From Chitinophagaceae bacterium (lineage in GTDB: Bacteria > Bacteroidota > Bacteroidia > Chitinophagales > Chitinophagaceae), in the NCBI GenBank assembly GCA_947381435.1, contig CANCVE010000039.1, forward strand, positions 1 through 35,394: 35,394 bases of DNA. The letters are read 5' to 3'. Shown here piece after piece: positions 8,161 to 32,554 of this stretch (within the stretch, counting starts at the first letter, position 1; each line of letters opens with the position of its first letter). A model generated the notes under the pieces. It ran no database searches and had not been told where the DNA came from. It saw only the letters and a list, made by a program, of their open reading frames with translations. Position numbers and translations under genes: made by a program.

Positions 8161-8357
8161 ATTGACAATCCGATTGCTCAAATTCACAATAATATTGACA
8201 AAATCGGCAATACGATTGATAAAATCGACAATATTATTGAGAAAATTGGCAATCTCATTGCCATAATTGACAATCCGATTGCTGCAATTCACAATAATAT
8301 TGACAAAATCGGCAATTCGATTGACAAAATTGGCAATCCGATTGCCCAAACTGGCTA
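8161..8357. repeat. 21-bp tandem array A (about 9 units)
   Basis: Units are exactly 21 bp, starting at 8176, 8197, 8218, 8239, 8260, 8281, 8302 and 8323, with partial units at both ends. A typical unit starts GACAAAATCGGCAAT and ends CGATT. There is higher-order structure: about 60 bp from 8161 recur almost unchanged 105 bp (five units) later, at 8266. Both strands stay open because 21 is a multiple of three, giving seven-residue peptide repeats (IDKIGNS on plus, NRIANFV on minus). These frames have no plausible gene context. The array directly follows a terminator. Confidence 0.9.
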
Positions 8358-8384
8358 TTAATGCTTTTGAAACAATAGAAATGA

Positions 8385-8579
8385 TTAATTTGTAGTTATT
8401 CGGAATTAGAAAACCATTTTCTTCGTAGTTCTGGATTCGTTTTGATTAACAACAACGAAAAGCAGGTTAGCATAATTAATCTAAAACTATTGGAACACTA
8501 TGCAATGTTTCAGAATTATTACTCACCAAAGGTTACCGAATTTCAATACAAGGATTTGTTGCGAAGCTTTTTGTCCTGA
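8385..8579 (+). pseudogene. Possible remnant of a protein-coding gene
   Basis: Sixty-four codons are open from just after an in-frame TGA to a TGA at 8577, with no ATG near the beginning. The translation is protein-like (SELENHFLRSSGFVLINNNE, then LLEHYAMFQNYYSPKVTEF, ending LLRSFLS). A run of this length is unlikely but not impossible in sequence this AT-rich. It looks like the 3' end of a gene whose 5' part was lost, possibly when array A expanded. No family was recognised. The rest of the gap up to 8743 shows nothing further. Confidence 0.3.
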
Positions 8580-8743
8580 TTTAGTATTAATTGCCAAATA
8601 CCTAAACCAAAGTTTATTTTACAGATTTATTTATTGAATAGAGAAAATACTTTTCTTTACACTTAAGTAAAATAGGTGTCCTGAAAACATTGACTTTATA
8701 TTTTATTGAAACAATTATTTTAACTAGTTATAATCAAAATAAA

Positions 8744-11209
8744 ATGGAATTTATTGTCTTCGCCTTAGTAGTTGCTATTCTTTTTATTCTGTTATCTTTA
8801 AAAAGTGATTTGACAGATAAGATACGTTCGCTTGACTTTCATATTCAGCAACTAAAAAAACAAATTGAAGAGGTCGCAAAATCACAATTATCTAATAACT
8901 CCATTTCATCTGATAAACAGTTTAAGGAGACACCAGTAGAACCAGTAAAACAAACAAAATCAGACTATTGGGAATCTGGGTTTAAGGTTGTTGTGGAACC
9001 TGAGGAAATTAAGCCAATTGACTTAATAAACATTTCCAGTACTGATACACTAGGAATATACGAAGAGGATTCTGTGGAATCTGTAAATGAAATTAAACCT
9101 GAACCAATAGCAGTTCCTGTAATTAATAGGCCATCTTTTGCAAACAAAAATGTGCCTAAAAAAGAAAAGCCTGATTTCTTTGAACGTAATCCTGACCTCG
9201 AAAAATTTATTGGCGAAAATTTAATAAGTAAAATTGGTATTGCCATATTGGTGCTTGCCATCGCATATTTTGTAAAGTTTGCTATTGACAATAATTGGAT
9301 CGGTGTTGTGGGGCGTGTGGGTATTGGTTTACTATGTGGCGCAATATTAACTGGGGCAGCTCATAAATTGCAAAATAGTTATAAGGCTTTCAGCTCTGTA
9401 TTGATTGGTGGAGGATTGGCTGTTTTCTATTTTACAATTACGCTGGCTTATCAACAATTTCATTTATTCAATCAAACAACTGCTTTTATTATAATGGTGA
9501 TAATTACTGCTTTTGCAGTGTGTTTGTCTTTACTATATGATAGGCAAGAAGTGGCAATCATTGCTTTGGTGGGTGGTTTTGCTTCTCCGTTTATGGCTAG
9601 CAATGGCAGTGGCGATTATAAAACGCTCTTCATTTATCTTATTATTCTAAATTGTGCTTTGCTTGCCATTGCCTTTAAAAAAGGATGGCGTATTCTTAAC
9701 TTACTTGCGTTTGCTTTTACCATCATTTTATACAATAGCTGGTTGTTTTACAGTCTAGATTATAACACGCCTGCTGCAACCTACAAAGGAGGTTTTGTAT
9801 TTGCTACTATCTTCTACCTGCTGTTTTTCAGTATCAATCTTTTGCATAATATTAAAGAAAATAAAAAGTTTCTTGCATCCGACTTTGCTATTCTACTAGC
9901 CAATACTGCTTTATATTTTGGCATTGGTCTATATCTTCTCGACAAAATGGATGCCGTATCATTGAAAGGATTATTCTGTATTTTGCTAGCCGTCATGAAT
10001 TTGATAATAACCTATACGCTATTTAAAAACAAAAAAGTAGATACAAATATTCTCTATCTGCTCATTGGTATTACACTCACTTTCATTTCTCTTACAGCAC
10101 CCATACAACTTCATGGGCATTATATTACGTTATTTTGGGCTTCAGAAACGGTGTTGTTATATTGGTTGTATCTAAAGTCGAGAATAACTTTTATCCAATG
10201 GACTTCAATGATTATTTGGGTGGCAATGACGTTTAGTTTATTGATGGACTGGCAAAACACATACGCATATACTGTAAATGCGGTAACAATTTTGTTTAAT
10301 AAAGGATTCATTGCCGGACTCTATTGTTCGGCTGCAACGTTCTTTTTATATGCTCTTTGTAGAAAAGAATCAGTGGCCTTAGAAAAGAATCTGGAATGGG
10401 GATACCATCAATATAAATCTGTTGTTCTGATAACTGGTACTGTTCTATTGTTCATAACTGGTTTATTTGAAATAGGGTATCAATTTGAACATTATTATCC
10501 AAATGAAGGCATTGCAATCTTGTATTCCCTCGCTTATATCAACTTGTTCATTTTAATAATATCAACACAAAAGACAACACTCTCACAATTAGAAAACTTT
10601 GAACAGATAAAACCTTACTTGTACATTGTGGGCATTGTAATGTATCTGATATGTGTATTTAGAATTTATCCCATTCAAGAAGCACTCTTAGAGGCACGGA
10701 TACATGTGATTCATTTTGCCATTCATTGGGTGAGTGCCTTAATAGTAGGTATATTTCTGTTTAAAATTATCAAACTTCTACGCACCATCAGTGGTGTAAA
10801 AGATGAGGATATGAATGTGTTTATTTGGCTAGTCTGTGGTGTAATTGTATTGTTTTTGAGTGTTGAAATAAACTTTCTGGTAAACCTAGTTTTCTATTCC
10901 AAAAACAACACCCTTGCCGATGTAAGTAGGGTTTACATCAAAACAGGGTTGCCGATATTGTGGGGTATCTGCTCGTTTGTGTTCATGTGGTTTGGTATGA
11001 AGTTTAAGTATAAAAAACTGCGTATAATATCTCTATCACTCTTTCTCGTGACGTTACTGAAACTATTCATATTCGATTTAAGCAATATTCCAGTTGCAGG
11101 TAAGATAGCAGCATTTTTCTGTTTGGGGGTATTACTGCTTGTAGTATCGTTTATGTATCAACGACTTAAAAAAATTATAATTGAAGATGAAAATAAAACT
11201 GTTGAATAG
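8744..11209 (+). CDS. DUF2339 polytopic membrane protein
   Basis: From the ATG at 8744 the protein has 821 residues. A TTG further upstream would add 18 residues in front of the first helix and is less likely. Order: a first membrane helix (MEFIVFALVVAILFILLSL), a short coiled coil (residues about 25-50), a charged linker to about residue 150, then some twenty or more membrane helices. FIGENLISKIGIAILVLAIA, VGRVGIGLL and VGGFASPFMAS are marks of DUF2339. The biochemical role is unknown. It overlaps the DUF3999 gene by 23 bp, so the two are co-translated, an association also known in other bacteria. An envelope role is inferred. Confidence 0.9.
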   Translation: MEFIVFALVVAILFILLSLKSDLTDKIRSLDFHIQQLKKQIEEVAKSQLSNNSISSDKQFKETPVEPVKQTKSDYWESGFKVVVEPEEIKPIDLINISSTDTLGIYEEDSVESVNEIKPEPIAVPVINRPSFANKNVPKKEKPDFFERNPDLEKFIGENLISKIGIAILVLAIAYFVKFAIDNNWIGVVGRVGIGLLCGAILTGAAHKLQNSYKAFSSVLIGGGLAVFYFTITLAYQQFHLFNQTTAFIIMVIITAFAVCLSLLYDRQEVAIIALVGGFASPFMASNGSGDYKTLFIYLIILNCALLAIAFKKGWRILNLLAFAFTIILYNSWLFYSLDYNTPAATYKGGFVFATIFYLLFFSINLLHNIKENKKFLASDFAILLANTALYFGIGLYLLDKMDAVSLKGLFCILLAVMNLIITYTLFKNKKVDTNILYLLIGITLTFISLTAPIQLHGHYITLFWASETVLLYWLYLKSRITFIQWTSMIIWVAMTFSLLMDWQNTYAYTVNAVTILFNKGFIAGLYCSAATFFLYALCRKESVALEKNLEWGYHQYKSVVLITGTVLLFITGLFEIGYQFEHYYPNEGIAILYSLAYINLFILIISTQKTTLSQLENFEQIKPYLYIVGIVMYLICVFRIYPIQEALLEARIHVIHFAIHWVSALIVGIFLFKIIKLLRTISGVKDEDMNVFIWLVCGVIVLFLSVEINFLVNLVFYSKNNTLADVSRVYIKTGLPILWGICSFVFMWFGMKFKYKKLRIISLSLFLVTLLKLFIFDLSNIPVAGKIAAFFCLGVLLLVVSFMYQRLKKIIIEDENKTVE

Positions 11210-12401
11210 ACCTATATTATTTTTTGTATTTATTGTTATCAGCTGTGTAGTTTCTGCACAATCGCACTTTAAATATAAAGCGACATTGGATAGCATAAAA
11301 CAAAGTGGTTTTTATCGAGTTCCACTTACAGCATCTATATTGGCAAAATGCCAAAGAGAATATGCAGACTTACGAATATTGGACAATGAGGGGAATCCTA
11401 CAGCCTACTTGTTGCAAACTGAAAATGGCGCATTTTACTCAACGCCAATGATTGATCTGCCAATAACTAAAAAGGAAAGAGGGGGTGATAAACAGTGGCA
11501 TATTACTGTAGAAAACAGTCTTAAAAGGGATATTGACCGTATTGTACTGACTGTAAAAGGAACTAATGCAAATAGAAATATAACCCTTTCCGGTAGTGAC
11601 GATGCCAAAAATTGGTATGTGATAACTGAGAATTATACCCCAGAGATTACCATGTTTGAACCGGGTAGAATGTCTATTTATTTCCCCTCCTGTAAATATA
11701 AATACTTTCAGATAACGCTTCTAGGTAAAGATTTATTACCAATTGATATTGAGAAGGTTAGTATTTACAGTAACAAAGTGATTGCACCACAATATTTTTC
11801 TTATCCACTTGGTTATAAGATTGTTCAACATGATAGTTCTAACAAAAAGAGTTATGTGAAAATAATTTTTGACGAGCCCTATCCAATAGAAAAAATTGAT
11901 TTGCAATTGTCTGGTGTCAAATATTTTAAAAGAAATGTAGCCATCTATAATTCATTGGATAATAGTTCATTAATTGATACCATAATTAGTTCTCAAAGTG
12001 ACAAATATTCAACTATTAATCTTTCTTGTAAAGAGAAAGAATTTTGGTTAGTAATAGATAATCTGGATGACAAACCATTGAAAGTAAATTCAATACAATG
12101 CTATCAATATGAAAGGCATTTGGATGCATATTTTGATTCTACAAAGAGGTATACACTCTACTTTGGCGATACAACTATTGCATCTCCTAACTACGATATT
12201 ACTTCTTTTAAAGACAGTATAACAAAATTAATCAAGGATGTTCCGGTAGGTAAAATTGAGAAGATTGATTACAAAACAGTCAAACCCAAATTAACTTCAA
12301 ATAAGAATGAATGGATTGTTTGGGCATGTATTGGCGTTGCATTAGTACTGTTGTTGAGTATTACATTAAAAATGCTCAAAGAAATAGGAGGTAAAAAGTA
12401 G
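11187..12401 (+). CDS. DUF3999 family envelope protein
   Basis: The ATG at 11187 (MKIKLLNRP) gives 404 residues; a TTG two codons earlier is less likely. A signal peptide (LFFVFIVISCVVSAQ) is followed by a large periplasmic region beginning with the family-typical segment SGFYRVPLTASILAK and ADLRILDNEGN. One transmembrane helix (IVWACIGVALVLLLSI) lies close to the C-terminus, with a short basic tail. DUF3999 proteins are commonly encoded next to DUF2339, and here the genes overlap, suggesting a complex with the DUF2339 protein in the inner membrane. Function unknown. Confidence 0.87.
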   Translation: MKIKLLNRPILFFVFIVISCVVSAQSHFKYKATLDSIKQSGFYRVPLTASILAKCQREYADLRILDNEGNPTAYLLQTENGAFYSTPMIDLPITKKERGGDKQWHITVENSLKRDIDRIVLTVKGTNANRNITLSGSDDAKNWYVITENYTPEITMFEPGRMSIYFPSCKYKYFQITLLGKDLLPIDIEKVSIYSNKVIAPQYFSYPLGYKIVQHDSSNKKSYVKIIFDEPYPIEKIDLQLSGVKYFKRNVAIYNSLDNSSLIDTIISSQSDKYSTINLSCKEKEFWLVIDNLDDKPLKVNSIQCYQYERHLDAYFDSTKRYTLYFGDTTIASPNYDITSFKDSITKLIKDVPVGKIEKIDYKTVKPKLTSNKNEWIVWACIGVALVLLLSITLKMLKEIGGKK

Positions 12402-12745
12402 TAGTTTAAAATAAGACGTTAACACTTTAATGAAGATGCAGAACTTAGTTCTGTGTTGGTAAGCCTAGTTGTTTATGGTATTCCCGAGAAGAAGATAATC
12501 ATAAAATAACAGACTTCGCAACCTAAAACAGCATTCATATAAACTTTTAAGAACAAACGGTATCTTGTAACCAGCATATAACTATCAAAATGGCTATTGC
12601 GTAAATGAATTCGTCTCACTTTTTTAAGATGTATTTGATGATTTAAGTTTTAAAGATTATTGAAAAATAAACAAGGGAATAAACATGATTTTTGTCATGT
12701 TTATTCCCTTGTTGTGTATTAACTTTATGTCTTAAAACGAGCTAT
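12402..12745. other. 344-bp intergenic region
   Basis: It contains a small hairpin, CAGAAC/GTTCTG (12439-12453), without a T-tract. A start-less 28-codon protein-like stretch (HFNEDAELSSVLVSLVVYG) ends near 12508 and could be a remnant. A long perfect hairpin at 12670-12713 is listed separately. Otherwise nothing was recognised. Confidence 0.4.
12670..12713. terminator. Perfect 19-bp hairpin upstream of uspA-like gene
   Basis: The arms 12670-12688 (AACAAGGGAATAAACATGA) and 12695-12713 are perfectly complementary, with a 6-nt loop, TTTTTG. It lies 32 bp before the start codon of the first UspA gene and 268 bp after the DUF3999 stop. No long T-tract follows on plus. It may be a terminator for upstream transcription or a structured 5' leader or regulatory site. 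Confidence 0.6.
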
Positions 12746-13588
12746 ATGAAAACGATATTAGTGCCTACCGATTTCTCAGATACATCATTAAAAGCAGCTA
12801 GTTATGCCATAGGCTTAGCAAAGCAAGTGCAAGCAACAAGGATTGTATTGTTTAATGCATTTTCTGCACCAATGAACACCACAATTGACCCGTTAGTTGT
12901 AGGAATTGGAATTATGGATTATGAAATGCTAGAAGGAGCCGCACTTGAAGGCCTTCAATATGTAAAAGATAAACTGTCTTCTGAATGCCCAGAAGGATTG
13001 GAGATCGAAGTATTTGCAAAATATGGTCTCCTGTCAGAAAATATTAATATCTCGTGCAAAGAAGTTGAGGCTGATGTTATAGTAATGGGAATAACTGGCG
13101 GAGGAATGGTGTCTGAAAAGTTATTTGGCAGCAATACTACCGTTGTGGCAAGGTGCGCTAATGTTCCAGTTATTATTGTGCCACCAATTAGCACCTATAA
13201 ACCAATTAGTAGGCTGCTTTTAGTATCAGACTTTGTGGCAATAGAAGAGTTTGTTCCATTTTCCGTGATAAAAAAAGTATTAGACGATACACAGGCAAAA
13301 CTTCTGATACTGCACGTTGCCGCTTCGGGTCATCATTCCCTATATGAAGGGGCTTATGAATGTTTTTCTTTTAAAGAAATGTTTGAAGGTTATCAACCAG
13401 AATTTCATTTTGTTGTAAACACTGATTTCGCTGGAGCTATAAATAAATTTGCAGAAGAAAATCATGCAGATATTGTTATGGTGATACCCAAAAAACACAG
13501 CTTTTTATCAAGTATATTTAATAAGAGTCATACAAAAGATTTGGCATTTCATAGTAATATCCCTTTAATGGCCGTTCATGAAATTTAG
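12746..13588 (+). CDS. Universal stress protein, two tandem Usp domains
   Basis: From the ATG at 12746 (MKTILVPTDFSDTS) the protein has 280 residues; an upstream TTG would start inside the long hairpin and is rejected. Domain 1 (about 1-148) has the Usp opening ILVPTDFSD and the ATP-binding pattern G-x2-G-x9-G-(S/T) in MGITGGGMVSEKLFGSN, then VPVIIVP. Domain 2 (about 155-280) begins LLLVSDF and ends VMVIPKKHSFLSSIF...SNIPLMAVHE, lacking the glycine-rich ATP motif. The protein is cytoplasmic. Paralogous to the next gene; the pair arose by duplication. A stress or starvation role is known for the family but not shown here. Confidence 0.92.
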   Translation: MKTILVPTDFSDTSLKAASYAIGLAKQVQATRIVLFNAFSAPMNTTIDPLVVGIGIMDYEMLEGAALEGLQYVKDKLSSECPEGLEIEVFAKYGLLSENINISCKEVEADVIVMGITGGGMVSEKLFGSNTTVVARCANVPVIIVPPISTYKPISRLLLVSDFVAIEEFVPFSVIKKVLDDTQAKLLILHVAASGHHSLYEGAYECFSFKEMFEGYQPEFHFVVNTDFAGAINKFAEENHADIVMVIPKKHSFLSSIFNKSHTKDLAFHSNIPLMAVHEI

Positions 13589-13685
13589 TAAATTCAAACA
13601 ATAATTTAAAGCTTAAAAATGACATTATAAGTCTAATTTTCTTCAAATAAATAACTATTGAACATCTTTAAATAAACAAGTGATT

Positions 13686-14534
13686 ATGAACACTATACTT
13701 CTGCCGACCGATTTTTCTGATGCTTCTATTTCTGCTGGAAAGTATGCATTGGCTTTTGCTAAACAAGTTAATGCAAAAAAAATAATATTATACCATACTT
13801 ATATTGTACCAATAAATTTCAATGTAATACCTACAGAACCAGTATTGATTGATGAAGATGTTGCCGACTTTGAGATAATGAAAGATAGTGCCATTAATGA
13901 ACTTAAATTGTTTAAAGAAGAATTAAAATCAGATGATTTTCCTGATATTGAGTTTGTAAACCTTGTCAATTATGGGTTCTTTACGGAGGATATTAAGAAA
14001 GTACAAGCTGAAATAAATGTTGATATTATAATTATGGGTATAAATGGGGGAGGAGCCTTTACTGAAAATATAATTGGAAGTGATTCTGTTGTGGTTGCAA
14101 GGCAGTCTACGGTACCTGTAATTATTGTTCCTAATAAAAGTAAATTTACCAGGATAAATAAAGTTGCATTAATCTCAGATTTTATTGATATTGAAAAATC
14201 TGTTCCTACTAAACAAATTATATGTTTATTGGATGAAACTAAAGCTCAATTACATATTCTACATGTTTCAAAAAATGCTGGTGATTCATTTGATAAAACG
14301 TCTGTAGAGTGTCAACAGTTTAATACGTTGTTTAATGGCTACAATCCTGTATTTCATATTGAAGAAGCCTTAGTATTTGCAGATGGAGTTAACGACTTTG
14401 TAGAATCTGAATCAATTGATTTGGTAATAATAATACCCAAGAAACATAATCTCTTAGAAAGTCTTTTTATAAAAAGTCACACTAAGGAATTAGCTTTTCA
14501 TAGTCACAAACCATTGTTTGTAGTTCATAGTTAA
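13686..14534 (+). CDS. Universal stress protein, two tandem Usp domains
   Basis: From the ATG at 13686 (MNTILLPTDFSDAS) the protein has 282 residues; the GTG two codons earlier is less likely. It has the same architecture as the preceding gene: an N-terminal Usp domain with the ATP motif MGINGGGAFTENIIGSD followed by VPVIIVPN, and a C-terminal Usp domain with KVALISDFIDIEKSVP and IIPKKHNLLESLFIKSHTKELAFHSHKP, where the glycine motif is lost. Near-identical C-terminal blocks (KSHTK-LAFHS) show recent tandem duplication. It is 97 bp after its paralogue and ends at a shared terminator with clpC. Confidence 0.92.
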   Translation: MNTILLPTDFSDASISAGKYALAFAKQVNAKKIILYHTYIVPINFNVIPTEPVLIDEDVADFEIMKDSAINELKLFKEELKSDDFPDIEFVNLVNYGFFTEDIKKVQAEINVDIIIMGINGGGAFTENIIGSDSVVVARQSTVPVIIVPNKSKFTRINKVALISDFIDIEKSVPTKQIICLLDETKAQLHILHVSKNAGDSFDKTSVECQQFNTLFNGYNPVFHIEEALVFADGVNDFVESESIDLVIIIPKKHNLLESLFIKSHTKELAFHSHKPLFVVHS

Positions 14535-14554
14535 TCATAAATTTTTAAACATAA

Positions 14555-14605
14555 AAACAAAAAGAGGAGACAATCTTAATGATAGAATGTCTCCTCTTTT
14601 TGTTT
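14555..14605. terminator. Bidirectional Rho-independent terminator
   Basis: An 18-bp perfect stem (14555-14572 with 14588-14605, core AAAAAGAGGAGACA) around a 15-nt loop, with A- and T-tracts built into the stem ends. It serves the second UspA gene (+) and clpC (-). Confidence 0.9.
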
Positions 14606-14620
14606 AATGTAAATGCTTAA

Positions 14621-17194: not shown

Positions 17195-17214
17195 GTAGCT
17201 ATTTTATTTTCTTA

Positions 17215-18955: not shown

Positions 18956-18963
18956 CAGATTCA

Positions 18964-18997: not shown

Positions 18998-19823
18998 ATT
19001 TTTATCCTTTCTCATTGTTGCATAAGTCTGATAATCAATTGTTTGCTTTAGTTTTATTGTTAGTTTAGTTTTTGCTTTTTAAATTTTATTGGCTGTCTTT
19101 AAATTTTGATAATTCCTTTTTAATTTCAAAACAATTGGCATTCATCTCTTCGGGGCACTCTCTCTTTTCTGCTTTAATGCCTTATTTGATGTTGAAATTC
19201 AATTTGCCACTTTTCTTGTCCTCTTTGTTATTCTTGTCTTTATTGCGTTTTTCTACTAAACTTTTTTTAGGGTTTTAAAAGTTTATTTTTAATTGTATCA
19301 TAAAAGAAATATTGATTTCTTAAAGGGGTATTTTGTGTGTAAAAATCCCGGTGGAGTGGTAGTTAAAATAATTGTTGACTAATATTAGAAGGCTGAAACT
19401 TCTTAGGTCGTCGATTTTTAATACTAACGGCAAATAATGCTTTCCTTTTTTAGGTTAATGCATCAGTTAGTTAAATAGGTACTCCTCTCTTTTCCTGCAT
19501 TATTGCTTTGTATTCCTTCTGCGTCTTATTGTTCAAATTTTAAATGGCCTTTTCTCTGTTGTTTCTCCACTTTCGTTTTAAATGAGGCCTAGTTTTACTT
19601 TCATTTCTTGCATTTAGTCATTTTCGGGTACTCTCTGAGGTTGAAAATGTTTCCTAACTACAATTATTTATCTAACATTAAAATTTAGAAATTATCTATT
19701 TTAGAATTCTGTTTTGATGATATTTTAAAATTGTCTCATGGCTACTTTACCAACTATGTATAAAATATAATCTAACCTCTCATTGGCGCTTATAAATTGT
19801 GCTTTTGCTGGGAATGTATCCTT

Positions 19824-19979
19824 AAGGAGCATATTTGTCTTCATAAGGAGCATATTTGTCTTCATAAGGAGCATATTTATATTCATAAGGAACATATTCG
19901 TATTCATAAGGAGCATATTCGTCTTCATAAGGAGCATATTCGTCTTCTTAAGGAGTATATTCGTATTCTTAAGGAGTAA
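19824..19979. repeat. 21-bp tandem array B (7 units plus a partial)
   Basis: Units start at 19824, 19845, 19866, 19887, 19908, 19929 and 19950, with a partial unit from 19971, all exactly 21 bp. Each begins AAGGAGCATATT (one AAGGAAC, late ones AAGGAGTATATT) and ends TCAT or TCTT. The first two units are identical. Several frames stay open on both strands and give seven-residue repeats (RSIFVFI, KEHIRLH, LLMKTNM). None has gene context or normal composition, so the signal is treated as DNA-level. Confidence 0.92.
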
Positions 19980-19996
19980 AACCAATAAATCTGCTC

Positions 19997-20145
19997 CTTA
20001 GGAATACAATTTTATTCCCCTTGAAAACGATTTTTTCTCATTTTAAGACGGTTTTATTCTGTTTTAATGCCATTCCTAAACTTTTGAAAACACGCTTTTT
20101 TCATTTTAAGCAAAAAATGTCTTTTTTTAAGACCATTTTTATACG
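19997..20145. repeat. Degenerate array D with 20-22 bp period
   Basis: About seven weakly conserved units follow array B. Boundaries lie near 20020, 20041, 20062, 20082, 20104 and 20125. Units start TTTTAAG, TTTTAATG or TTTTGAAAAC and end in T-rich stretches such as TTTTTTCTCA. The T-tracts recur about every 21 bp, so they are phased with the helix and the DNA is probably curved. Confidence 0.65.
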
Positions 20146-24216: not shown

Positions 24217-24221
24217 AAAGA

Positions 24222-24339
24222 ATTTTACCATTAAGTACACTAAGGAGAAACAAGGACCACAAAGTTTTTGTGAAGTGCCAACGCGTACCCTATTTCTTTG
24301 TGTCTCTTTGTGAATACTACGTATTCCTTATGGTAAAAT
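24222..24339. repeat. 118-bp palindromic interspersed element
   Basis: The ends are perfect 10-bp inverted repeats, ATTTTACCAT (24222-24231) and ATGGTAAAAT (24330-24339). Inside, ACCACAAAG on the left pairs with CTTTGTGT on the right, and a GAATAC-TAC-GTATTC hairpin is near the right end. Sequences of this type (CACTAAGGAGAAACAAGG, CTTTGTGTCTCTTTGTG) recur between genes in many Bacteroidota, by memory. It is likely a MITE or REP-type repeat with no coding content. Confidence 0.7.
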
Positions 24340-24399
24340 GAGTTATAAACGCACTTCTACAATCAATTTTTAATAGTATTCATTTAATAAAATAAGACA

Positions 24400-24825: not shown

Positions 24826-24832
24826 GTAATAG

Positions 24833-24862
24833 AGCAGAACGCCGAAGGCGTTCTGCTTTTTC
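24833..24862 (+). terminator. Rho-independent terminator
   Basis: AGCAGAACGCC (24833-24843) pairs perfectly with GGCGTTCTGCT (24847-24857) around GAA, followed by a T-tract. It ends the PepSY-like gene. Confidence 0.93.
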
Positions 24863-24984
24863 TTTTCCATCATTTATAGGAAACTGTATATGCAATAGTT
24901 TCCCTAGCATTCTTATGTGCTTTATAAAACAACAACAGCAATTGATTAAAGGGGTGAAATAAACTAACTATTAAAAAAATATTT

Positions 24985-27432
24985 ATGCGAATAACAATAA
25001 TAATTTGGCTATGCCTAATTGGGCTATGTTTTAAGATATCCGCTCAAGAAACAAAGAAGTATTCCTTTTCGGGTAAGATATTGGATGCAGAAACAAAGAA
25101 ACCTTTAACCAATTGTACGGTAAACTTATTGGATGCAAAGATGGCTGTGGCCAAAACATCCCAAACTGATGAGGAAGGTTTGTTTTCTTTCGATAAATTA
25201 TCTACACAAAACATAACTATCTCTATAGAATACATTGGTTACGGTGTTATTAGGAGAGATATTACGGTGAAATCTGCAAAAGGAACTGATACAATACAGG
25301 TTGCCAAGAAGGTAAGGGCATTGAACGAGGTGGTGGTGACAAGTAACCAGAAGCTGATAGAGAACAAGGTGGATAGGTTAGTGTACAATGTAGAGCAAGA
25401 CGTTACATCGCAAGGGGGAGTGGCCACAGATGTACTTAAAAAAGTGCCACAGGTTACAGTGGATATAGATGGTAAAGTAGAACTATTGGGCAACCCAAGT
25501 ATCTTGTTTCTAATAAATGGAAAACGGTCTTCTCTGTTTGGTTCCAATGCAGCAGATGCTCTGCAATCTATTCCAACCAGTCAAATACAAAAGATAGAAG
25601 TAATGACCATACCTCCTTCTAAATACCAGGCGTCCGGAACGGGTGGTATCATCAATATTGTATTAAAAAAAAATAAGCTGGAGGGTTATAATGGCACGCT
25701 GAACCTATCTGGTGGAACAAGATTGGAGAATGCAAGCCTGAATGGCAACTACAAGCAAAAGAGTTTTTCGGCTAATGCGTTTATAAGCGGTAATGACCAA
25801 CTTACTGGCAAAATGCCGAGTGGTAGTACACGGAACACACAAAATACCAGTGGAAATAGCTTGCTTATACAAGATGGAAGTACTGATTTTGGGAGAAACA
25901 GTTACCGCATGGGGACAGGTGTAGATTGGGAGATTACCAAGAAAGATATACTTTCTGCATCGATAAGCACTGATGGGGCGCGCAAGAATAATAAGGGGGA
26001 TATTGCACTGCAATCTTATAATTATGACCTGACAAATAAGCTATTGAACAGCACAAACACTATGAGAGATTTTGAAAACAACAACAAGAAATCTACGTTG
26101 GAAACAAATGTTACTTATCATAGAGATTTGGGAAAGAATGATAGGAACATAGAGTTCTCTTTTGGAAATAGTACAGATTATATTGATGATTATTACCATC
26201 AAATACAGGATAGTGCAACGCATACAATTCCTTTTGCAGGGTCTTATAGTAAAAATCCGGGAAGGGAGAGTGAAACTAACTGGACAGTGGATTATACACA
26301 TCCTTTTGGGGAGGATATTTCTGTGCAAACTGGGTTTAACTATACGCAGCAGGAAATAATAAGCTCTGCCAATGTGTTTACCTTATTGGCGAACACAATT
26401 ATTTTCAATAGGGATAGTTTACAATCGTACCAATCTAGTTTTAAGCGGGATATTTATGCAGGATATATTTCAGGAACCTATACACTTTTCGATTGGTTGG
26501 ATGTAATGTCGGGTTTGCGATATGAATATACCAAAAGCAAGGCATGGTATAATAATTCAGGCAATGTATCGATACCCGATTACGGAAACATTGCCCCTTC
26601 CTTAATACTTCAACATAAATTCAAGCATGGATTATCCTTTAAATTGGCGTATAGTTATCGTATAGAAAGACCAGACTTTGGGGATATGAATCCTTTTATG
26701 AATCTATCAGACCCAAATAACATTTCTACGGGTAATCCTAATCTAAAACCAGAGATTGGTAACAATTATCAGTTTTCTATGAATAAGACATACGAAAAGG
26801 GAGGCTTTATAAATGCAGTTCTGTTTTGCAATTACAATAGTCCGGATATAAAGCCTTACACCACCTACTATCCTACGTATAAAATTGGAGATTCTATCTA
26901 TACAAATGTCGCCATTAGCTCAAGGGCAAATATCAGTGCCGAAACAAGGATTGGGTTGAATATTTCAGGTTCTATTCCCGTAGGTAACTTCAAGATTAAT
27001 CCCAATATAATGCTGTTCAACAGACATTTGATTAACCCTTTTGATACACCTAGGGTTACCAATGCTTTTGGGTTTAGGACAAGTATGAATGTTACTTATA
27101 CATTGTCTAAAAGTTGGGTGATGGAGGCATTTGGTAATTACAATATGGGAATGAAATGGCAGGGAAGAACGCCCGCAAACTATAGTTACACACTTGCCGC
27201 CAAAAAACAACTATGGAAAAGTAAAGGCAGCTTAGGAATAGTTGTGGTAAATGCTTTTGATAAATATATACGGCAGACTTATGAGGTAGATACCAAGAAT
27301 ATTGTTACCAATGGATACAGGAATCAGCCTTATCAATCTTTTGGTTTGGTGTTTAACTATAAGTTCGGTGCCTTAAAAGTGACCAAACAAAAGGAAGGGG
27401 AGAACTTTTTGTATGCGCCACCTGCGCAGTAA
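24985..27432 (+). CDS. Outer-membrane beta-barrel protein, TonB-receptor-like
   Basis: An 815-residue outer-membrane protein. Signal peptide residues 1-20 (ending KISAQ); a carboxypeptidase-regulatory-like beta-sandwich about 25-105 (FSGKILDAETKKPLTNCTV); a plug-like region about 110-240 (LNEVVVTSNQKLIENKVDRLVYNV, IPTSQIQKIEVMTIPPSKYQ, GTGGIINIVLKKNK); then a barrel of the OMP_b-brl_3 type to the C-terminus. This group resembles TonB-dependent receptors but usually lacks a recognisable TonB box, and none was seen at the N-terminus. The substrate is unknown, and no SusD partner follows. The His-rich and PepSY-like neighbours may point to metals, weakly. Confidence 0.9.
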   Translation: MRITIIIWLCLIGLCFKISAQETKKYSFSGKILDAETKKPLTNCTVNLLDAKMAVAKTSQTDEEGLFSFDKLSTQNITISIEYIGYGVIRRDITVKSAKGTDTIQVAKKVRALNEVVVTSNQKLIENKVDRLVYNVEQDVTSQGGVATDVLKKVPQVTVDIDGKVELLGNPSILFLINGKRSSLFGSNAADALQSIPTSQIQKIEVMTIPPSKYQASGTGGIINIVLKKNKLEGYNGTLNLSGGTRLENASLNGNYKQKSFSANAFISGNDQLTGKMPSGSTRNTQNTSGNSLLIQDGSTDFGRNSYRMGTGVDWEITKKDILSASISTDGARKNNKGDIALQSYNYDLTNKLLNSTNTMRDFENNNKKSTLETNVTYHRDLGKNDRNIEFSFGNSTDYIDDYYHQIQDSATHTIPFAGSYSKNPGRESETNWTVDYTHPFGEDISVQTGFNYTQQEIISSANVFTLLANTIIFNRDSLQSYQSSFKRDIYAGYISGTYTLFDWLDVMSGLRYEYTKSKAWYNNSGNVSIPDYGNIAPSLILQHKFKHGLSFKLAYSYRIERPDFGDMNPFMNLSDPNNISTGNPNLKPEIGNNYQFSMNKTYEKGGFINAVLFCNYNSPDIKPYTTYYPTYKIGDSIYTNVAISSRANISAETRIGLNISGSIPVGNFKINPNIMLFNRHLINPFDTPRVTNAFGFRTSMNVTYTLSKSWVMEAFGNYNMGMKWQGRTPANYSYTLAAKKQLWKSKGSLGIVVVNAFDKYIRQTYEVDTKNIVTNGYRNQPYQSFGLVFNYKFGALKVTKQKEGENFLYAPPAQ

Positions 27433-27802
27433 TAATATTGTGATTGCAGAATAGTATAATTAGAAGGCTTTTTCGGATTCAAGGCTTATTGTTTTTTCTT
27501 TACTAGTGATTAACTAAAGGAAGGATAGAATTTGTAGGTTGAAAGTGAACCGAATTTTAAGAAAGGATAAAATTGTGAGGGATAAGTAGATAAATGTGAA
27601 AGGGGAGTAGCATCAAAAAAAGGGTAAGCGAATATTGAAAAAGCGTAATTAGTGAAATTTTATCTTCGGAGAGATTCAATAAGCTGTGGTTAGGGCATTG
27701 AAAATTTTAATTAGCTCAAAATAGTGTGCTGGATGTATTAAAAACTTTATCGAAAAAAGAGGGAAGTTTAACCCCTACATTTGGAAAATAAAAAGAACAA
27801 TT
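27433..27802. other. 370-bp purine-rich gap
   Basis: Mostly purine-rich on plus (for example AAAGGAAGGATAGAA, AAGGGGAGTAGC), like the gap after the kinase gene. No open frame, RNA gene or terminator was recognised. The right end holds the promoter of the DUF1569 gene. Confidence 0.5.
27776..27783 (+). promoter_or_regulatory. Putative -7 box of the DUF1569 gene
   Basis: TACATTTG matches TAnnTTTG and lies 20 bp before the ATG. A -33 TTG was not found. Confidence 0.45.
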
Positions 27803-28255
27803 ATGAACAATGTTTTTAATGCAGCCGATACGGCTATTGTTATCAATAGAATCTCTAAATTAACACCTGAATCTAAACCTTTATGGGGGAAGATGGCTGT
27901 AGGACAAATGTTGGCACATTGTAATGTAACCTATGAGCTGGTGTATGAAAATATTCATCCAAAGCCAAATGCATTCATGAAGTTTATACTAAAAACCTTT
28001 GTAAAAAAGCTTGTAGTAAATGATGTTCCATATAAACATAACGGACAAACAGCACCTTATTTCATTATAAAAGATGATAAAGACTTCAATAAAGAAAAAA
28101 ATAGGCTAATTTACTACATTAATAAAACACAGCAACTTGGTGCGCAAAATTTTGAAGGAAAAGAATCACATTCATTTGGAAAACTTACACAAGTAGAATG
28201 GAATAATATGTTTTACAAACATTTGAATCATCACCTATCTCAATTTGGTGTTTAG
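27803..28255 (+). CDS. DUF1569 (DinB-like) protein
   Basis: A 150-residue protein. LWGKMAVGQMLAHCNVTYELV near the N-terminus and MFYKHLNHHLSQFG at the C-terminus match the DUF1569/DinB-like four-helix fold, in which His37 and the C-terminal histidines would form a metal site. The function in this family is unknown; related DinB-fold enzymes are thiol transferases or metal-dependent hydrolases. No signal peptide, so cytoplasmic. It has its own promoter and terminator. Confidence 0.82.
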   Translation: MNNVFNAADTAIVINRISKLTPESKPLWGKMAVGQMLAHCNVTYELVYENIHPKPNAFMKFILKTFVKKLVVNDVPYKHNGQTAPYFIIKDDKDFNKEKNRLIYYINKTQQLGAQNFEGKESHSFGKLTQVEWNNMFYKHLNHHLSQFGV

Positions 28256-28319
28256 TATAACAATTATAGCCTTAAGTGGTGATTATTGATTCAATAATTA
28301 CATGATTATTTTTGAGTAT

Positions 28320-28356
28320 TAGCTCTAGACAATAACTGTTTAGAGCTATTTTTTTT
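28320..28356 (+). terminator. Rho-independent terminator
   Basis: TAGCTCTA (28320-28327) pairs with TAGAGCTA (28341-28348), followed directly by eight Ts. It ends the DUF1569 gene. Confidence 0.85.
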
Positions 28357-28533
28357 GGGTGAAAACAGTCTTTTTTTCAAACAATCAAAGTATTTTTCAA
28401 CTCTATTTTATACTTGGGTATCATAAAATAAAATTGCTGAAACTCAATAAGGAAGCGGGTTTCAATATTTTAGTAATAGTTTGGTATCATAAAAACGCCA
28501 TTAAGTTAGTACCTAATGGCGCAAATGCAACGT

Positions 28534-28541
28534 TACTTTTG
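28534..28541 (+). promoter_or_regulatory. Putative -7 box of a candidate small RNA
   Basis: TACTTTTG matches TAnnTTTG. About 190 bp downstream is an isolated strong terminator with no open reading frame between. No -33 TTG is seen. Confidence 0.35.
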
Positions 28542-28547
28542 TGTAAC

Positions 28548-28730
28548 AAATAAGGAAATAAACATCCTGAATAATAAGGTAGCAATCGTTAGAAGAGCAA
28601 GATTATCGTGAGAGGCCAAGTTCGAAGAAAGTTAAGCTACTTTAAAAGGCTCAAATTACTAAGAAGAATTTTTCATATGGCAAGCAATCGTTAGAGGTCA
28701 GTCTGTTTCTACAGAGTGACCCTTTTTTTT
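28548..28730 (+). ncRNA. Candidate small RNA, about 180 nt
   Basis: The evidence is positional: a -7-like box (28534-28541), no open frame, then a terminator hairpin (GGTCA and CTGT paired with ACAG and TGACC, 28696-28721) followed by eight Ts. Inside, AAGGTAGC (near 28577) can pair with GCTACTTT (near 28637), with one G-U pair. The 13-mer AGCAATCGTTAGA occurs twice, at 28581 and 28683. The length would suit a regulatory RNA of 6S size, but no known RNA family was recognised. Confidence 0.35.
28696..28730 (+). terminator. Rho-independent terminator without an adjacent ORF
   Basis: The stem GGTCA/TGACC plus inner CTGT/ACAG around a TTCT loop is followed by C and eight Ts. No protein gene ends nearby on plus, so it implies a non-coding transcript or a remnant. 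Confidence 0.75.
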
Positions 28731-28947
28731 GAATCACTTTGCAAATATATAGGGATAGAATTCTAATATTAACAAATTGTGAAATTTATTTTTTAACAAA
28801 ATCAAGACATTTATCCACGACTTTTATCACTCAATAAATGCTACTGAAAATATCTTAAAAGCATTAGCATAATTAAAACAATAAGCCAAACTTGTTTTCA
28901 TTATTGTGCTATTGCTGTACATTTACCCCCAACAAATAAGTGACAAA

Positions 28948-29976
28948 ATGAGGCTGCTGCCTTTTAAAAAAGTACATCCACTTGTAATATGGTTTGCCGT
29001 AATTGTTTCCATTAACCTTTTTGGGGTTTTAGGGTTCATGGTGGTAGAAAAGCTAAGTCTTTTTGATGCACTTTACATGACCATAATTACCATTACCACC
29101 ATTGGTTATAGTGAAGTAAAGGCATTGTCGCACGAGGGGAGGATATTTAATATCATCTTTATCATTACTTCTTTTACCACATTTACAATAGCCTTGGCAG
29201 GACTGACAAGATATATTGCAAGTGGAGAAATGTTTCTGTATTTAAAAAATAGAAAGCTGATGAAAGCGTTAGGACAACTAAATAATCATGTAATAGTTTG
29301 TGGATTTGGTAGAAATGGACAGCAAGCAGCTAAAACTTTAAAGAGCCATAAGCTTCCTTTTGTGGCAATAGATTATAGGGAGAAAAATATAGATGATTAC
29401 CTAAAACACGACCCTGATTTGATTTATATAAAAGGTGATGCTACCGATGATGCATTGCTTTTACAGGCGGGAATAGAGCGCGCATCGGGGCTTATATGTG
29501 CATTGCCCACCGATGCAGACAATGTTTTTATTGTTTTATCGGCAAGATCTCTCAATGCACACATACAAATCATAAGTAGGTCTGCACAGGCTAGTTCTAT
29601 AGCTAAACTAAAGAAAGCAGGAGCTGATAATGTGATTATGCCAGACAGAATTGCGGGTACGCACATGGCTACTTTATTATCTAAACCCGATGTTATAGAG
29701 TTTATAGATTATTTGTCGGGCGAGGAAGGCGAAAGTATTAATATTGAAAGTGTTGCGTACGAAAGTTTACATAATTCTATACAGGATAGTACCCTAAAAG
29801 AAGTAATGGAATGGGAGAAAACCGGGATGACCTGCATCGGTGTAAAAGATAAGGATGGTAAGTTTATGATTAATCCACCGCATGATACCTTGATAGGCGC
29901 GGGAATGAAAGTAATAGTATTGGGTTCGAAAGACCAGATTAGAAAGATGAAACACAACTTAATTAATATAAAATAA
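28948..29976 (+). CDS. Potassium channel with TrkA-N/TrkA-C (RCK) domains
   Basis: From the ATG at 28948 (MRLLPFKKVHPLV) the protein has 342 residues; a GTG 14 codons earlier is less likely. Helix 1 is about 11-33, the pore loop about 38-58, and helix 2 about 65-90, a two-helix K+ channel. The selectivity filter region is TITTIGYSEV (filter TIGYS at 51-55), with Ser in place of the usual second Gly. The cytoplasmic RCK domain has the nucleotide-binding GFGRNG (119-124) and conserved KGDATDD; a TrkA-C domain covers about 255-342. A tetramer gated by a ligand at the RCK ring is expected. The next gene starts 9 bp later, so they are probably co-transcribed. Confidence 0.92.
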   Translation: MRLLPFKKVHPLVIWFAVIVSINLFGVLGFMVVEKLSLFDALYMTIITITTIGYSEVKALSHEGRIFNIIFIITSFTTFTIALAGLTRYIASGEMFLYLKNRKLMKALGQLNNHVIVCGFGRNGQQAAKTLKSHKLPFVAIDYREKNIDDYLKHDPDLIYIKGDATDDALLLQAGIERASGLICALPTDADNVFIVLSARSLNAHIQIISRSAQASSIAKLKKAGADNVIMPDRIAGTHMATLLSKPDVIEFIDYLSGEEGESINIESVAYESLHNSIQDSTLKEVMEWEKTGMTCIGVKDKDGKFMINPPHDTLIGAGMKVIVLGSKDQIRKMKHNLINIK

Positions 29977-29985
29977 CAACATAAA

Positions 29986-31032
29986 ATGACAATAATTAAT
30001 GCCGCATTGTGCTCTTTTGGAATGTCGGGGCGCGTATTTCATGCTCCATTTATAAACTTACACCAAGGGTTTAATTTAATTGGTGCATGGGAGAGGAGTA
30101 AGCACTTGATTCAGGAACATTATCCTACTGCCAAATCGTATGCTAATTACGAAGATTTATTAAAGGATACAAGCGTGGAACTGGTGATAGTAAATACACC
30201 TACATATTCGCATTATGACTATGCAAAGCAGGCTTTATTGGCAGGAAAACATGTGGTGGTAGAGAAGGCGTTTACAACAACAGTGGCAGAAGCAGAAGAA
30301 CTAAAAGCAATAGCACAGGAAAAGGGATTAGTGATAAATGTGTTTCAAAACAGGCGATGGGATAGTGATTTTTTAACGGTGAAATCGGTTGTAGAATCTG
30401 AAAAATTGGGCAAAATAAATGAAGCAGAGTTCCGTTTTGATAGATTTAATTTAGCTTTAAGCCCAAAAGCACACAAAGAAGTACCTGGTCCAGGTGCGGG
30501 AATTATGAAAGACTTGGGGCCACATATAATAGATCAAGCATTGTATCTTTTTGGTATGCCCAATGCCTTATTTGCTGACATAAGGATAACGCGTCCTGCT
30601 TCGGAAGTGGATGATTGCTTCGAATTATTGTTTTATTATCCAACAATGAGGGTAAGATTAAAGGCAGGATATATTGTAAAAGAATTATTGCCATCGTATA
30701 TAGTGCATGGAAGCAATGGGTCTTTTGTGAAGAATAGGGCAGATTTGCAAGAAGTCAAATTGTTGCTCAATGAAAAGCCGAATATAGCTACTTGGTGTTC
30801 TGAACCAGAAAGCGAAGAAGGTATTTTACATATTGATGTAAATGGTGCAAGCAGTAGGTATACTATTCCGACTTTAAAAGGCAATTATTATCATTTTTAT
30901 GAGGGCGTATATCAATCAATTGCCAATAATGCTTCTCCAATAGTGAGTGCAGATGATGGGATAAATGTGATGAAGATTATTGAAGCATCAGTTACTTCGA
31001 GTAAAGAGAAACGAGTTGTAGAACTAGCATAA
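29986..31032 (+). CDS. Gfo/Idh/MocA-family NAD(P)-dependent oxidoreductase
   Basis: A 348-residue protein. An N-terminal Rossmann fold begins AALCSFGMSGRVFHAPFI, a variant of the glycine-rich loop seen in this branch (the YdgJ/scyllo-inositol dehydrogenase-like group). Conserved elements are VIVNTPTYSHYDYAKQALLAGKHVVVEKAF (the EKP motif is EKA here) and GIMKDLGPHIIDQALYLFG with the catalytic-region DLGPHIID. The C-terminal alpha/beta domain is complete. The substrate, probably a sugar or inositol, cannot be read from the sequence. It follows the channel gene by 9 bp. Confidence 0.9.
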   Translation: MTIINAALCSFGMSGRVFHAPFINLHQGFNLIGAWERSKHLIQEHYPTAKSYANYEDLLKDTSVELVIVNTPTYSHYDYAKQALLAGKHVVVEKAFTTTVAEAEELKAIAQEKGLVINVFQNRRWDSDFLTVKSVVESEKLGKINEAEFRFDRFNLALSPKAHKEVPGPGAGIMKDLGPHIIDQALYLFGMPNALFADIRITRPASEVDDCFELLFYYPTMRVRLKAGYIVKELLPSYIVHGSNGSFVKNRADLQEVKLLLNEKPNIATWCSEPESEEGILHIDVNGASSRYTIPTLKGNYYHFYEGVYQSIANNASPIVSADDGINVMKIIEASVTSSKEKRVVELA

Positions 31033-31135
31033 ATCGGTTAATAAAAGGATTTTTAGTTGAGATAAATAGGTTATATTTTTAGTATTCCATGATTCTTAAT
31101 CAAATGATATCTCAATAACACATTACTTTGCCACC

Positions 31136-32225
31136 ATGACAATAGAACAAATTAAAGATATAAGAGACCGTGTAGTGGTTTTGGGGAGGTTTCTTTGACT
31201 ACGCTAACCGGAAAAACAAAGTAGCACAAGACAAACAACTATCTCTTTCGGCAGGTTTCTGGGACGATAATGTCCGAGCCACCGCCACTATGAAAGACAT
31301 TAAGGCAAACGAATATTGGATAAAGCTATACGAGCAAGTGGATACTGCCGTTGAAGACTTTGTTGTGCTGTTCGACTTCTTTAAGGAAGGCGATGCTACA
31401 GAGGAAGAAACGAAAGCTGCCTACACTGCCGCACTTGCTGCAATAGAAGATGCAGAGTTCAAAAGTACGCTCAATAAACCTGAGGATGAAATGACTGCCA
31501 TTGTACAGATTAATGCTGGTGCTGGTGGAACTGAAAGTCAGGATTGGGCAGAAATGCTGATGCGGATGTACATTATGTATGGACAAAAACAAGGTTGGTC
31601 AGTAACCGAAGTGGATTATCAAGCAGGTGATGCAGCAGGTATTAAAACCGCTACACTTCAATTCGAAGGTTCTTTCGCTTATGGCTTTACCAAAAGTGAG
31701 AGTGGGGTGCATCGATTGGTGCGTATCTCGCCTTTTGATAGTAATGCCCGCCGTCATACCTCTTTTGCCAGCGTTTATGTGTATCCTTTGATAGATGATA
31801 CCATAGAAATAACCATTCATCAATACGATCTGGAATGGTCTTTCTCCCGAAGCGGTGGTGCAGGTGGACAGAATGTAAATAAGGTAGAAACCTCTGTACG
31901 GTTAAAGCATACGCCAACAGGTTATATAGTTGAATGTCAGATAGCTAGAACGCAGGGAGAGAATAAGGAAATAGCGTTAAAGATGTTGCGTAGCCGTCTT
32001 TACGAAGACGAAATGCGGAAACGACAAGAAGTATTGGATGCCAATAACTCCAAGAAAAAGAAGATAGAATGGGGTAGCCAAATAAGGAGTTATGTTTTTC
32101 ATCCGTATAAGATGATTAAAGATCACCGCACCGACTATGAAGTGGGTAATGTGCAGCCCGTAATGGATGGTGAACTTGACGGTTTTGTAAAAGCTTATCT
32201 TATGATGGAGAAAGAAGATAGCTAG
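31136..32225 (+). CDS. prfB: Peptide chain release factor 2, programmed +1 frameshift
   Basis: Release factor 2 (recognises UAA/UGA) of 362 residues if read through a +1 shift. The start ATG at 31136 opens 20 codons ([20 protein letters not shown]) and meets TGA at 31196-31198. Shifting at CTT-TGA-C after 31195 continues as [20 protein letters not shown] to the TAA at 32225. An SD-like GGGGAGG lies just upstream of the slip site, as in classic prfB. Later motifs are [13 protein letters not shown] (SPF, stop-codon recognition) and [17 protein letters not shown] (GGQ, peptidyl-tRNA hydrolysis). Taking only the ATG at 31290 would give a truncated protein. The gene ends at a strong terminator. 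Confidence 0.96.
31183..31199 (+). promoter_or_regulatory. prfB autoregulatory +1 frameshift site
   Basis: The slip sequence CTTTGAC (31193-31199) contains the in-frame TGA, with GGGGAGG (31183-31189) as internal Shine-Dalgarno-like stimulator 3 bp before it. Low RF2 slows termination at TGA and favours the shift, so RF2 controls its own synthesis (established for prfB in other bacteria). Confidence 0.93.
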
Positions 32226-32252
32226 TTATAAATAATTAACTATGAGTTAAAG

Positions 32253-32290
32253 GAATCCCACTAAGCAAAATGTTTAGTGGGATTCTTGTT
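32253..32290 (+). terminator. Rho-independent terminator of prfB
   Basis: GAATCCCACTAA (32253-32264) pairs perfectly with TTAGTGGGATTC (32274-32285), followed by a T-rich tail. Confidence 0.9.
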
Positions 32291-32344
32291 TTAATCATAC
32301 CTGAAAAAATGTTCCCCTTAACTCTTTGGTTTGTGGCATTCTGA

Positions 32345-32554
32345 AAGGTATAACTCCGCTCCGTGAAGGTATAATTCAGTTACTAAGAGGTATAAATAAG
32401 TTACTAAGAGGTGTAATTCGGTTACTAAGATGCGTAACTCGGCTTCTAAAAGGTATAAATCGGCTACAGAAAGGTATAACTTGACTACAGAGAGGAGTAA
32501 ATCGGTTACAGGGTGGTGTAAATCAGTTACTAAGAGGTATAAATCGATACAAGT
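32345..32554. repeat. 21-bp tandem array C (10 units)
   Basis: Ten consecutive units start every 21 bp without any slip, at 32345, 32366, 32387 and so on to 32534. The consensus begins RAGGTATAAATCGG and ends TTACTAA. Units differ by a few substitutions and no indels. One plus frame spells a seven-residue repeat (LLRGINR) but is broken by a TGA near 32480, so it is not a gene. The array lies between the prfB terminator and the tandem paralogue genes. Confidence 0.92.

Follow-up and report, generated by a model that had tools for sequence, protein, structure and literature searches.

Why do tandem arrays with different unit sequences, all lying between genes, share a period of 21 bp? The question is raised by a stretch of 35,394 nucleotides (the window) from G000, a Chitinophagaceae genome of 4.88 Mb, which contains the following features.

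Array 1: 8161..8355 (TRF), no strand, 9.3 units of 21 bp with a ATTGNCAAT-type core, rich in dyads
Array 2: 19823..19976 (TRF), no strand, 7.3 units of 21 bp, TAAGGAGCATATTCGTCTTCA
Left inverted arm of array 2: 19815..19836, no strand, inverted-end score 14.5
Right inverted arm of array 2: 19987..20008, no strand, closing array 2 in the inverted-end scoring
Array 3: 19997..20145, no strand, T-rich DNA with weak 20-22 bp periodicity, its first part apparently a continuation of the array 2 element
Array 4: 32345..32554 (TRF 32367-32545), no strand, 8.5 copies of 21-bp units with the core AGGTRTAA
Terminator hairpin upstream of array 1: 8114..8143, plus strand, stem present in the RNA fold and read directly
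Rho-independent terminator-like hairpin upstream of array 4: 32251..32287, plus strand, from a terminator scan

The identity at lag 21 is 0.72, 0.92 and 0.71 in arrays 1, 2 and 4, compared with 99% null values of 0.42, 0.45 and 0.40, and lags 20 and 22 are at background; together with TRF, this bears out the exact 21-bp period that the original prediction assigned to three of its four arrays. In array 3, the periodicity of 20-22 bp is weak and close to the 99% null of 0.50, with top lags of 42 (0.51), 22 (0.48) and 21 (0.47), and TRF finds 2.8 copies at 20009-20067. In addition, array 3 begins inside the right inverted arm of array 2, and the similarity between array 2 and a relative elsewhere in the genome (C10:960-1093) continues to about 20059, i.e. 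into array 3. Array 3 is therefore not independent of array 2, and judging from the sequence the two look like one element. All four arrays lie outside the listed ORFs of the window, as had been proposed, and two of them, arrays 1 and 4, each have a terminator hairpin upstream; the one at 8114-8143, which has a 10-nt loop, is absent from the list of the terminator consensus scan.

The 21-bp period extends to the genome and the genus. A 1.23-Mb sample of G000 (25% of the genome) contains 121 clusters of at least 63 bp. Ten of these have no base period, five have a base of 7 and three a base above 100, leaving 103 arrays with base periods of 15-100 bp, of which 94 lie within 1 bp of 21, 42, 63 or 84 bp, values that account for 12 of the 86 possible base periods. 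A shift scan without TRF gives a concordant quantum. The arrays occur at a density of about 80 per Mb, make up about 1.5% of the sampled sequence and are mostly intergenic (4/67 inside ORFs of at least 200 aa). In eight genus mates, 33 of 46 arrays are on the quantum, and the class is thus found in nine sampled members of this genus, a group of freshwater-type bacteria; it is not shared by 80 loci, mostly from other genera (stretches of G019 registered as GC 0 and contributed nothing to the period scan). The original prediction of a strong 21-bp peak, chiefly between genes and made up of numerous consensuses, is borne out in the sampled quarter of G000 and again in the eight genus mates. A chance origin is rejected by a Markov-3 control, which yields a single cluster of that length.

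Some arrays have base periods of 41, 43 or 83 bp, and hardly any base period is an odd multiple of 10.5 bp. Of the 36 arrays with periods of 41-43 bp, 24 lack 21-bp repetition yet keep the four-turn length, arguing against an origin of 42-bp arrays solely by higher-order copying.

Within the arrays, the register is kept far better than the sequence. Neighbouring units diverge by about 22%, and of 355 core-to-core steps, counted in 46 of the 49 base-period-21 arrays with steps above 90 bp left out, 341 are exactly 21 bp and 8 are off the 21-bp register; in the genus mates, 1 of 114 steps is off register. With the substitution:indel ratio measured in intergenic DNA (7.5), simulation gives 16.9% off-register steps, compared with 2.3% observed, and with the ratio of ORFs (84) it gives 2.0%, figures in which the preference of TRF for in-register arrays is corrected only as far as the simulation model reaches. 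The near-absence of off-register steps supports the proposed selection on unit length. Since sequences vary from array to array while almost every unit measures two or four turns, these data suggest that spacing, not sequence, is what the arrays preserve. The same steps bear on the idea that replication or repair copies DNA in increments of roughly 21 bp and that the resulting neutral arrays persist wherever genes are spared. A copying quantum of this kind would account for a period common to unrelated unit sequences, for the higher-order repeats of 42, 63 and 84 bp found within arrays, and for the avoidance of genes. However, it is neutral decay that predicts the higher off-register fraction, and the dyad symmetry and inverted ends described below are not predicted at all, making this account rather improbable.

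The class shows no sign of translation, in agreement with its predicted non-coding nature. Because 21 is a multiple of 3, arrays could in principle encode seven-residue (heptad) repeats, and array 1 and its relative at C5:48445-48633 do have one open frame in common, in which isoleucine follows a heptad pattern. However, column variability in 52 arrays lacks a 3-bp periodicity (0.76 of the permuted value), the number of open frames (101, compared with 95.6 after column-wise permutation) reveals no avoidance of stops, base periods of 41, 43 and 83 bp disrupt the frame, and neither array 2 nor array 4 shares an open frame with its relative. Heptad coding, rejected for the class with array 1 as a possible exception by frame only, thus has almost no likelihood. 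Phased curvature of the A-tract type is not supported either, as WW dinucleotides give no 10-11 bp signal inside units; of the original prediction, the 21-bp peak and unit-length selection are supported, whereas the seven-codon idea fails for the class. A role as terminators is rejected, because convergent gaps are not favoured by the arrays.

Many arrays are dyad-symmetric. Relative to column-permuted arrays, the mean fold z is -2.0, with 42 of 94 arrays below -2 and none above +2; in genus mates, 15 of 33 arrays are below -2. Dyads are significant (p<0.05) in 18 of the 34 base-period-21 arrays, out of 49, that passed the filters of the dyad and spacer test (five or more in-register units with sufficient variation), and in 24 of 66 consensus units; neither dyads nor folding are in excess in window arrays 2 and 4. 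The excess folding of both strands, together with the z of -5.8 for array 1 folded as RNA with its flanks, could mean that the arrays work as RNA, with transcripts forming rows of small hairpins to which a protein binds or which stabilise the transcript. We consider this very unlikely: array 4 shows no folding (z +1.8), the arrays have no preference for gene orientation, Rfam at gathering scores finds only a tRNA in the window, and a 21-bp helical quantum is expected of DNA rather than of RNA hairpins.

Inspection by eye of C2:47382 shows a conserved core of about 14 bp and a varying spacer of about 7 bp; of the 34 filtered arrays, only 5 have a significant variable-spacer block. Within the 42-bp units of the 24 arrays without 21-bp repetition, alternating dyads at a distance of 21 bp are not seen (1/24, 8% null), and two strong dyad axes at any distance are somewhat commoner (5/24, 8% expected). 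Furthermore, the two ends are inverted copies of each other (score of at least 11) in 25 of 93 arrays, compared with 0.4% of mismatched pairs, and in 10 of 31 arrays of genus mates, compared with 1.1%; the other 68 of the 93 score lower. These inverted ends are particular to each array and not common to families.

The arrays form small dispersed families. BLAST sorts the 94 arrays into 69 families, and 44 of the 94 have a sequence partner at another genomic place. The similarity is limited to the arrays in the C24/C32 pair, spans 367 bp and enters the flanks in the C18/C20 pair, and is accompanied by common flank sequence in the C8/C28 pair. Array 4 has relatives in G000 (C2, C33 and C202), G003 (C449) and G005 (C67 and C114). 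The four window arrays had been called unrelated, which holds among themselves, but arrays 1, 2 and 4 each have relatives elsewhere in the genome; four separate inventions are thus not what the window records, the clear arrays belonging to dispersed families and array 3 going with array 2.

In gene gaps shared with a sister species, arrays recur more than elsewhere, several with unrelated sequence, although the numbers are small. Orthologous sites can be found only in part through flanking genes, because synteny within the genus is poor. A strict two-sided test against G003 gives three sites with arrays in both genomes, two in G000 only (one of them of the heptamer type), none in G003 only and 21 in neither (p 0.0038); with all relatives pooled, p is 0.017, and G005 and G007 have no array site in common with G000 in this test. 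A looser one-sided test gives 6/11 compared with 2/18 (p 0.028), counting C38:6128 as own-only even though a related array is visible there by hand. At sites C32, C16 and C20 the two arrays are seemingly unrelated, with best ungapped scores of 11, 12 and 7 and shuffle maxima of 8, 11 and 8, so that C32 and C16 are slightly above. Related arrays are found at C38:6128 and C3:94639 (ungapped scores 51 and 56). At C2:37614 the G003 array belongs to the same broad family but is nearer to window array 4, and at C1:67703 arrays lie past the same gene end in both species with different consensuses, a comparison of consensuses and not of scored similarity.

We therefore favour, at a probability of about 45%, non-coding arrays of sites on one helix face, probably for a cooperative DNA-binding protein. 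Short, often dyad-symmetric sites repeat every two turns (21 bp) or four turns (41-43 bp), and such a fixed step places every site on the same side of the helix. Proteins, most likely dimers, would bind these sites cooperatively on one face, which may be why the spacing is selected, and the bound arrays would form a local nucleoprotein platform serving as a chromosomal or transcriptional spacer. Site sequences would drift or be exchanged, so that families come and go but the step, and perhaps the gap between genes, stays the same. One helix face alone is insufficient to explain the quantum, given the near-absence of odd multiples of 10.5 bp.

Inverted ends and dispersed families also fit mobile elements. 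The main rival, which we consider unlikely but far from negligible, is therefore that the arrays are non-autonomous, MITE-like mobile hairpin elements, each with its own inverted repeats, moved by a transposase that reads hairpin shape and spacing. In line with this, the genome has seven Y1-transposase matches, and an array like C20:10913 is present in G003 at C263 (87% identity), whereas a different array occupies the G003 copy of the shared gap. However, the inverted ends are array-specific and below the score of 11 in most arrays, mobility alone explains neither the two-turn quantum nor the rarity of indels, neither target-site duplications nor empty-site junctions came to light, and C38:11674, the one own-only site examined closely, is not a clean insertion. 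It is a tentative and somewhat doubtful extension that the genus holds several hundred intergenic arrays in which the sequence is exchanged but the step, and perhaps the gene gap, is kept, the spacing being measured by an undescribed DNA-binding polymer or by a shape-reading transposition system. Returning to a binding protein, its role in organising the chromosome would be an inference, and the search for candidates came up empty: a histone fold occurs in none of 23 genomes, and HU is not expanded in them (two HU-family matches in G000, 1-4 in the others).

DNA between bacterial genes is commonly interpreted as promoters, terminators and relics of mobile elements, and here about 1.5% of the sampled genome consists of arrays defined by length rather than by sequence. 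Selected spacing would point to some protein or process able to gauge a length of two helical turns, and a copying quantum to a bias in how one genus duplicates DNA; either outcome would bear on the origin and persistence of bacterial satellites. Conservation of step and gap with replacement of sequence, if true, would be a bacterial counterpart of satellite logic.

A literature search found no published description of such an array class. Plasmid iterons are direct repeats of about two helical turns with protein sites on one face, and they lie at a single origin beside a rep gene and have one common sequence. The present arrays share the direct repeats of about two turns but are scattered genome-wide, and no replication initiator gene is found among the Pfam-scanned neighbours of the window arrays (DUF2339, lactamase-fold, PAS kinase, prfB and two proteins without a match). 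BrickBuilt, a MITE minisatellite of Porphyromonas gingivalis (PMC4596501), resembles them in belonging to Bacteroidota, in its intergenic repeats of about two turns (23 nt), in its many copies and variable copy number and, for the 25 of 93 arrays whose ends are inverted copies, in its inverted-repeat ends. As described in that account, however, it is one sequence family of 19 copies with a leader, a tail and shared terminal inverted repeats, whereas here there are dozens of unrelated families with array-specific inverted ends and a quantum of 21/42/63/84 bp. REP/BIME elements are likewise short palindromic repeats between genes, but are defined, in the account of PMC3733652, by shared palindromes of 20-40 bp, while each array here has its own sequence. 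Such palindromes are tagged and go with a RAYT transposase, and the Y1-transposase matches in G000 number seven. The TAACTGA heptamers are abundant short intergenic direct repeats, also in five Bacteroidetes, with a single 7-bp unit as far as PMC4679880 describes them; most 21-bp arrays here are near background at lag 7, and a few separate heptamer arrays exist. Finally, arrays 1, 2 and 4 fall within the definition of prokaryotic satellites and minisatellites (repeats of 10-200 bp, at least 4 copies). The dispersed non-coding tandem arrays surveyed in PMC6749651 are similar, but that account, as far as it goes, does not describe a 21-bp quantum; its Bacteroidota example is limited to one Flavobacterium psychrophilum family, and its densities exceed the present one only in some Methanosarcina.

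A scan with TRF of 1,226,450 bases sampled from the window's own genome, G000 (clusters of at least 63 bp, period at least 9), returned 121 clusters, compared with 1 in a Markov-3 control. A base period between 15 and 100 bp was assigned to 103 of them, and in 94 of these it falls within 1 bp of 21, 42, 63 or 84 bp. An ungapped shift scan of 835 kb of G000, independent of TRF, peaks at the same periods (37 at 21, 49 at 42, 29 at 63 and 32 at 84, every other period reaching at most 5), verifying the genome-wide 21-bp excess that the original prediction called for.

Base periods of the 94 G000 arrays
21 bp: 49 arrays
22 bp: 4 arrays
41 bp: 9 arrays
42 bp: 23 arrays
43 bp: 4 arrays
63 bp: 1 array
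64 bp: 1 array
83 bp: 3 arrays

The same quantum periods occur in 33 of 46 arrays of eight genus mates, with 2 to 12 per sampled genome. In a comparison set of 80 loci around the release-factor gene (1.34 Mb, a single gene neighbourhood throughout, at least one locus, L025, belonging to the genus itself), three clusters include a row of period 21, 42, 63 or 84, and in none of the three is such a period the best, one having 20. G000 falls in the Chitinophagaceae, going by its nearest relatives, and no quantum arrays are present in 100 kb from two other genera of that family. Within this sampling, the phenomenon looks restricted to this genus.

The window was first read as holding four arrays of mutually unrelated sequence with a period of 21 bp or nearly so:

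8161-8355, array 1: exact 21-bp repetition, preceded by a terminator hairpin (by fold); relative on G000 contig C5
19823-19976, array 2: exact 21-bp repetition; relative on G000 contig C10
19997-20145, array 3: weak periodicity
32345-32554, array 4: exact 21-bp repetition, preceded by a terminator hairpin; relatives on three G000 contigs (C2, C33, C202), with others from two genus mates

The 21-bp period stands for arrays 1, 2 and 4, as does the placement of arrays 1 and 4 after terminator hairpins. Each clear array has relatives elsewhere in G000. Array 3, with its weak repetition, shares sequence with the arm closing array 2, so the two are best described as a single element. Beside array 1, the DUF2339 gene has a G003 relative in two overlapping pieces (L208/L209, G003:C323), one with two internal stops.

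In base-period-21 arrays, neighbouring units mismatch at 1,703 of the 7,712 bases compared. Core-to-core steps were counted in 46 arrays: 341 of the 355 measure exactly 21 bp, 6 span a larger multiple of it and 8 fall off-register; in genus mates, 1 of 114 is off-register. Alignments between G000 and its genus mate G003 contain 1,570 mismatches and 208 gap openings in intergenic DNA, a ratio of 7.5 to 1, versus 84 to 1 in ORFs. Arrays simulated at each ratio and put through the identical detection step, which is biased toward in-register arrays in a way that the simulation corrects within the limits of its model, gave 16.9% and 2.0% off-register steps, respectively, compared with 2.3% observed. 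The arrays thus keep their register roughly as strictly as genes keep their reading frame, although no reading frame is involved.

Only 4 of 67 arrays lie inside ORFs of at least 200 aa, with ~82% of the DNA in ORFs under the same crude calling. The suggestion that 21 bp serves as seven codons with open frames fails for the class, as 52 arrays show no codon-position pattern and their open frames are about equal in number to those of permuted controls. In addition, base periods of 41, 43 and 83 bp rule out a reading-frame rule. The sole coding hint among the window's arrays is one frame, with isoleucine heptads (IDNPIAQ-like), open in both array 1 (window 8161-8357) and its relative L017:8445-8635 (reverse).

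The arrays fold better than column-permuted controls (mean z −2.0; 42 of 94 below −2 and 0 of 94 above +2), as do those of genus mates (15 of 33 below −2). Testing for dyads by base frequencies gives a positive result for 18 of 34 arrays, in which the least variable columns lie 2-6 bp off the axis, a profile that is only indicative since low variability partly guided axis choice. Array 1 is dyad-rich and array 4 is not, while array 2 has symmetry at its ends, without excess in its units. Some arrays, C2:47382 among them, combine a constant ~14-bp core with differing ~7-bp spacers; a general core/spacer block test is weak (p<0.05 in 5 of 34 arrays).

Given the preserved register, the excess of symmetry and the freedom of the sequence to vary, we favour the reading that the arrays are binding sites kept on one helix face, with the protein and its function inferred. 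Putative protein sites would be presented on one face of the helix, their spacing kept and their sequence free to change. A copying quantum is a possible origin, but leaves the scarcity of indels and the symmetry unexplained. The strongest rival, mobile hairpin elements, may be the route by which such arrays spread, and is compatible with binding sites. The two ends of an array match each other as inverted copies (score of at least 11) in 25 of 93 arrays, versus 0.4% for ends of different arrays (genus mates, 10 of 31 versus 1.1%). A sequence partner exists within the sample for 44 of 94 arrays; likeness is confined to the arrays in the C24/C32 pair and reaches well past them in C18/C20.

In a one-sided test, with G003 alignable up to the gap edge, G003 holds an array in 6 of 11 gene gaps with a G000 array versus 2 of 18 without (p 0.028); under a stricter, two-sided version the counts are 3 of 5 versus 0 of 21 (p 0.0038), and pooling all relatives gives p 0.017. 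The paired arrays look unrelated in sequence at the C32, C16 and C20 gaps, and are related at C38:6128 and C3:94639. Persistence at gene-gap positions is only suggestive, because numbers are small and long gaps may draw arrays in both species.

A literature search covering few subscription papers found no account of repeat periods quantised at 21 bp between bacterial genes. The closest systems there are BrickBuilt (PMC4596501), prokaryotic satellites (PMC6749651) and heptamer repeats (PMC4679880). In addition, a lake long-read study describes intergenic tandem repeats in Planctomycetota (PMC9426551), and PMC4060949 surveys DNA structure features.

Arrays of 7/14 bp, of CTAACCA/ACTAATA type, form a separate class (L008:18395-18474, L014:694-749, L011:11280-11317 and others) and resemble published heptamer direct repeats. 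Seven Y1-type transposase matches occur in G000 (L117-L123), with 21/42/43-bp arrays also on L120 and L121. L203:12142-12270, a short stretch just past the C38 array, matches more than 10 G003 contigs and is a small dispersed repeat. An ORF of 2,787 aa (L020:3529-7231) carries 15.8 copies of a 234-bp coding repeat and resembles an adhesin solely in its repeat structure. Another intergenic repeat, ~170-190 bp long and dispersed (L298:1501-1678), perhaps a MITE, has several copies in G000 and G003, including:

G000 C4 51193-51358, copy of the repeat
G000 C4 60803-60978, copy of the repeat
G000 C1 76522-76712, copy of the repeat
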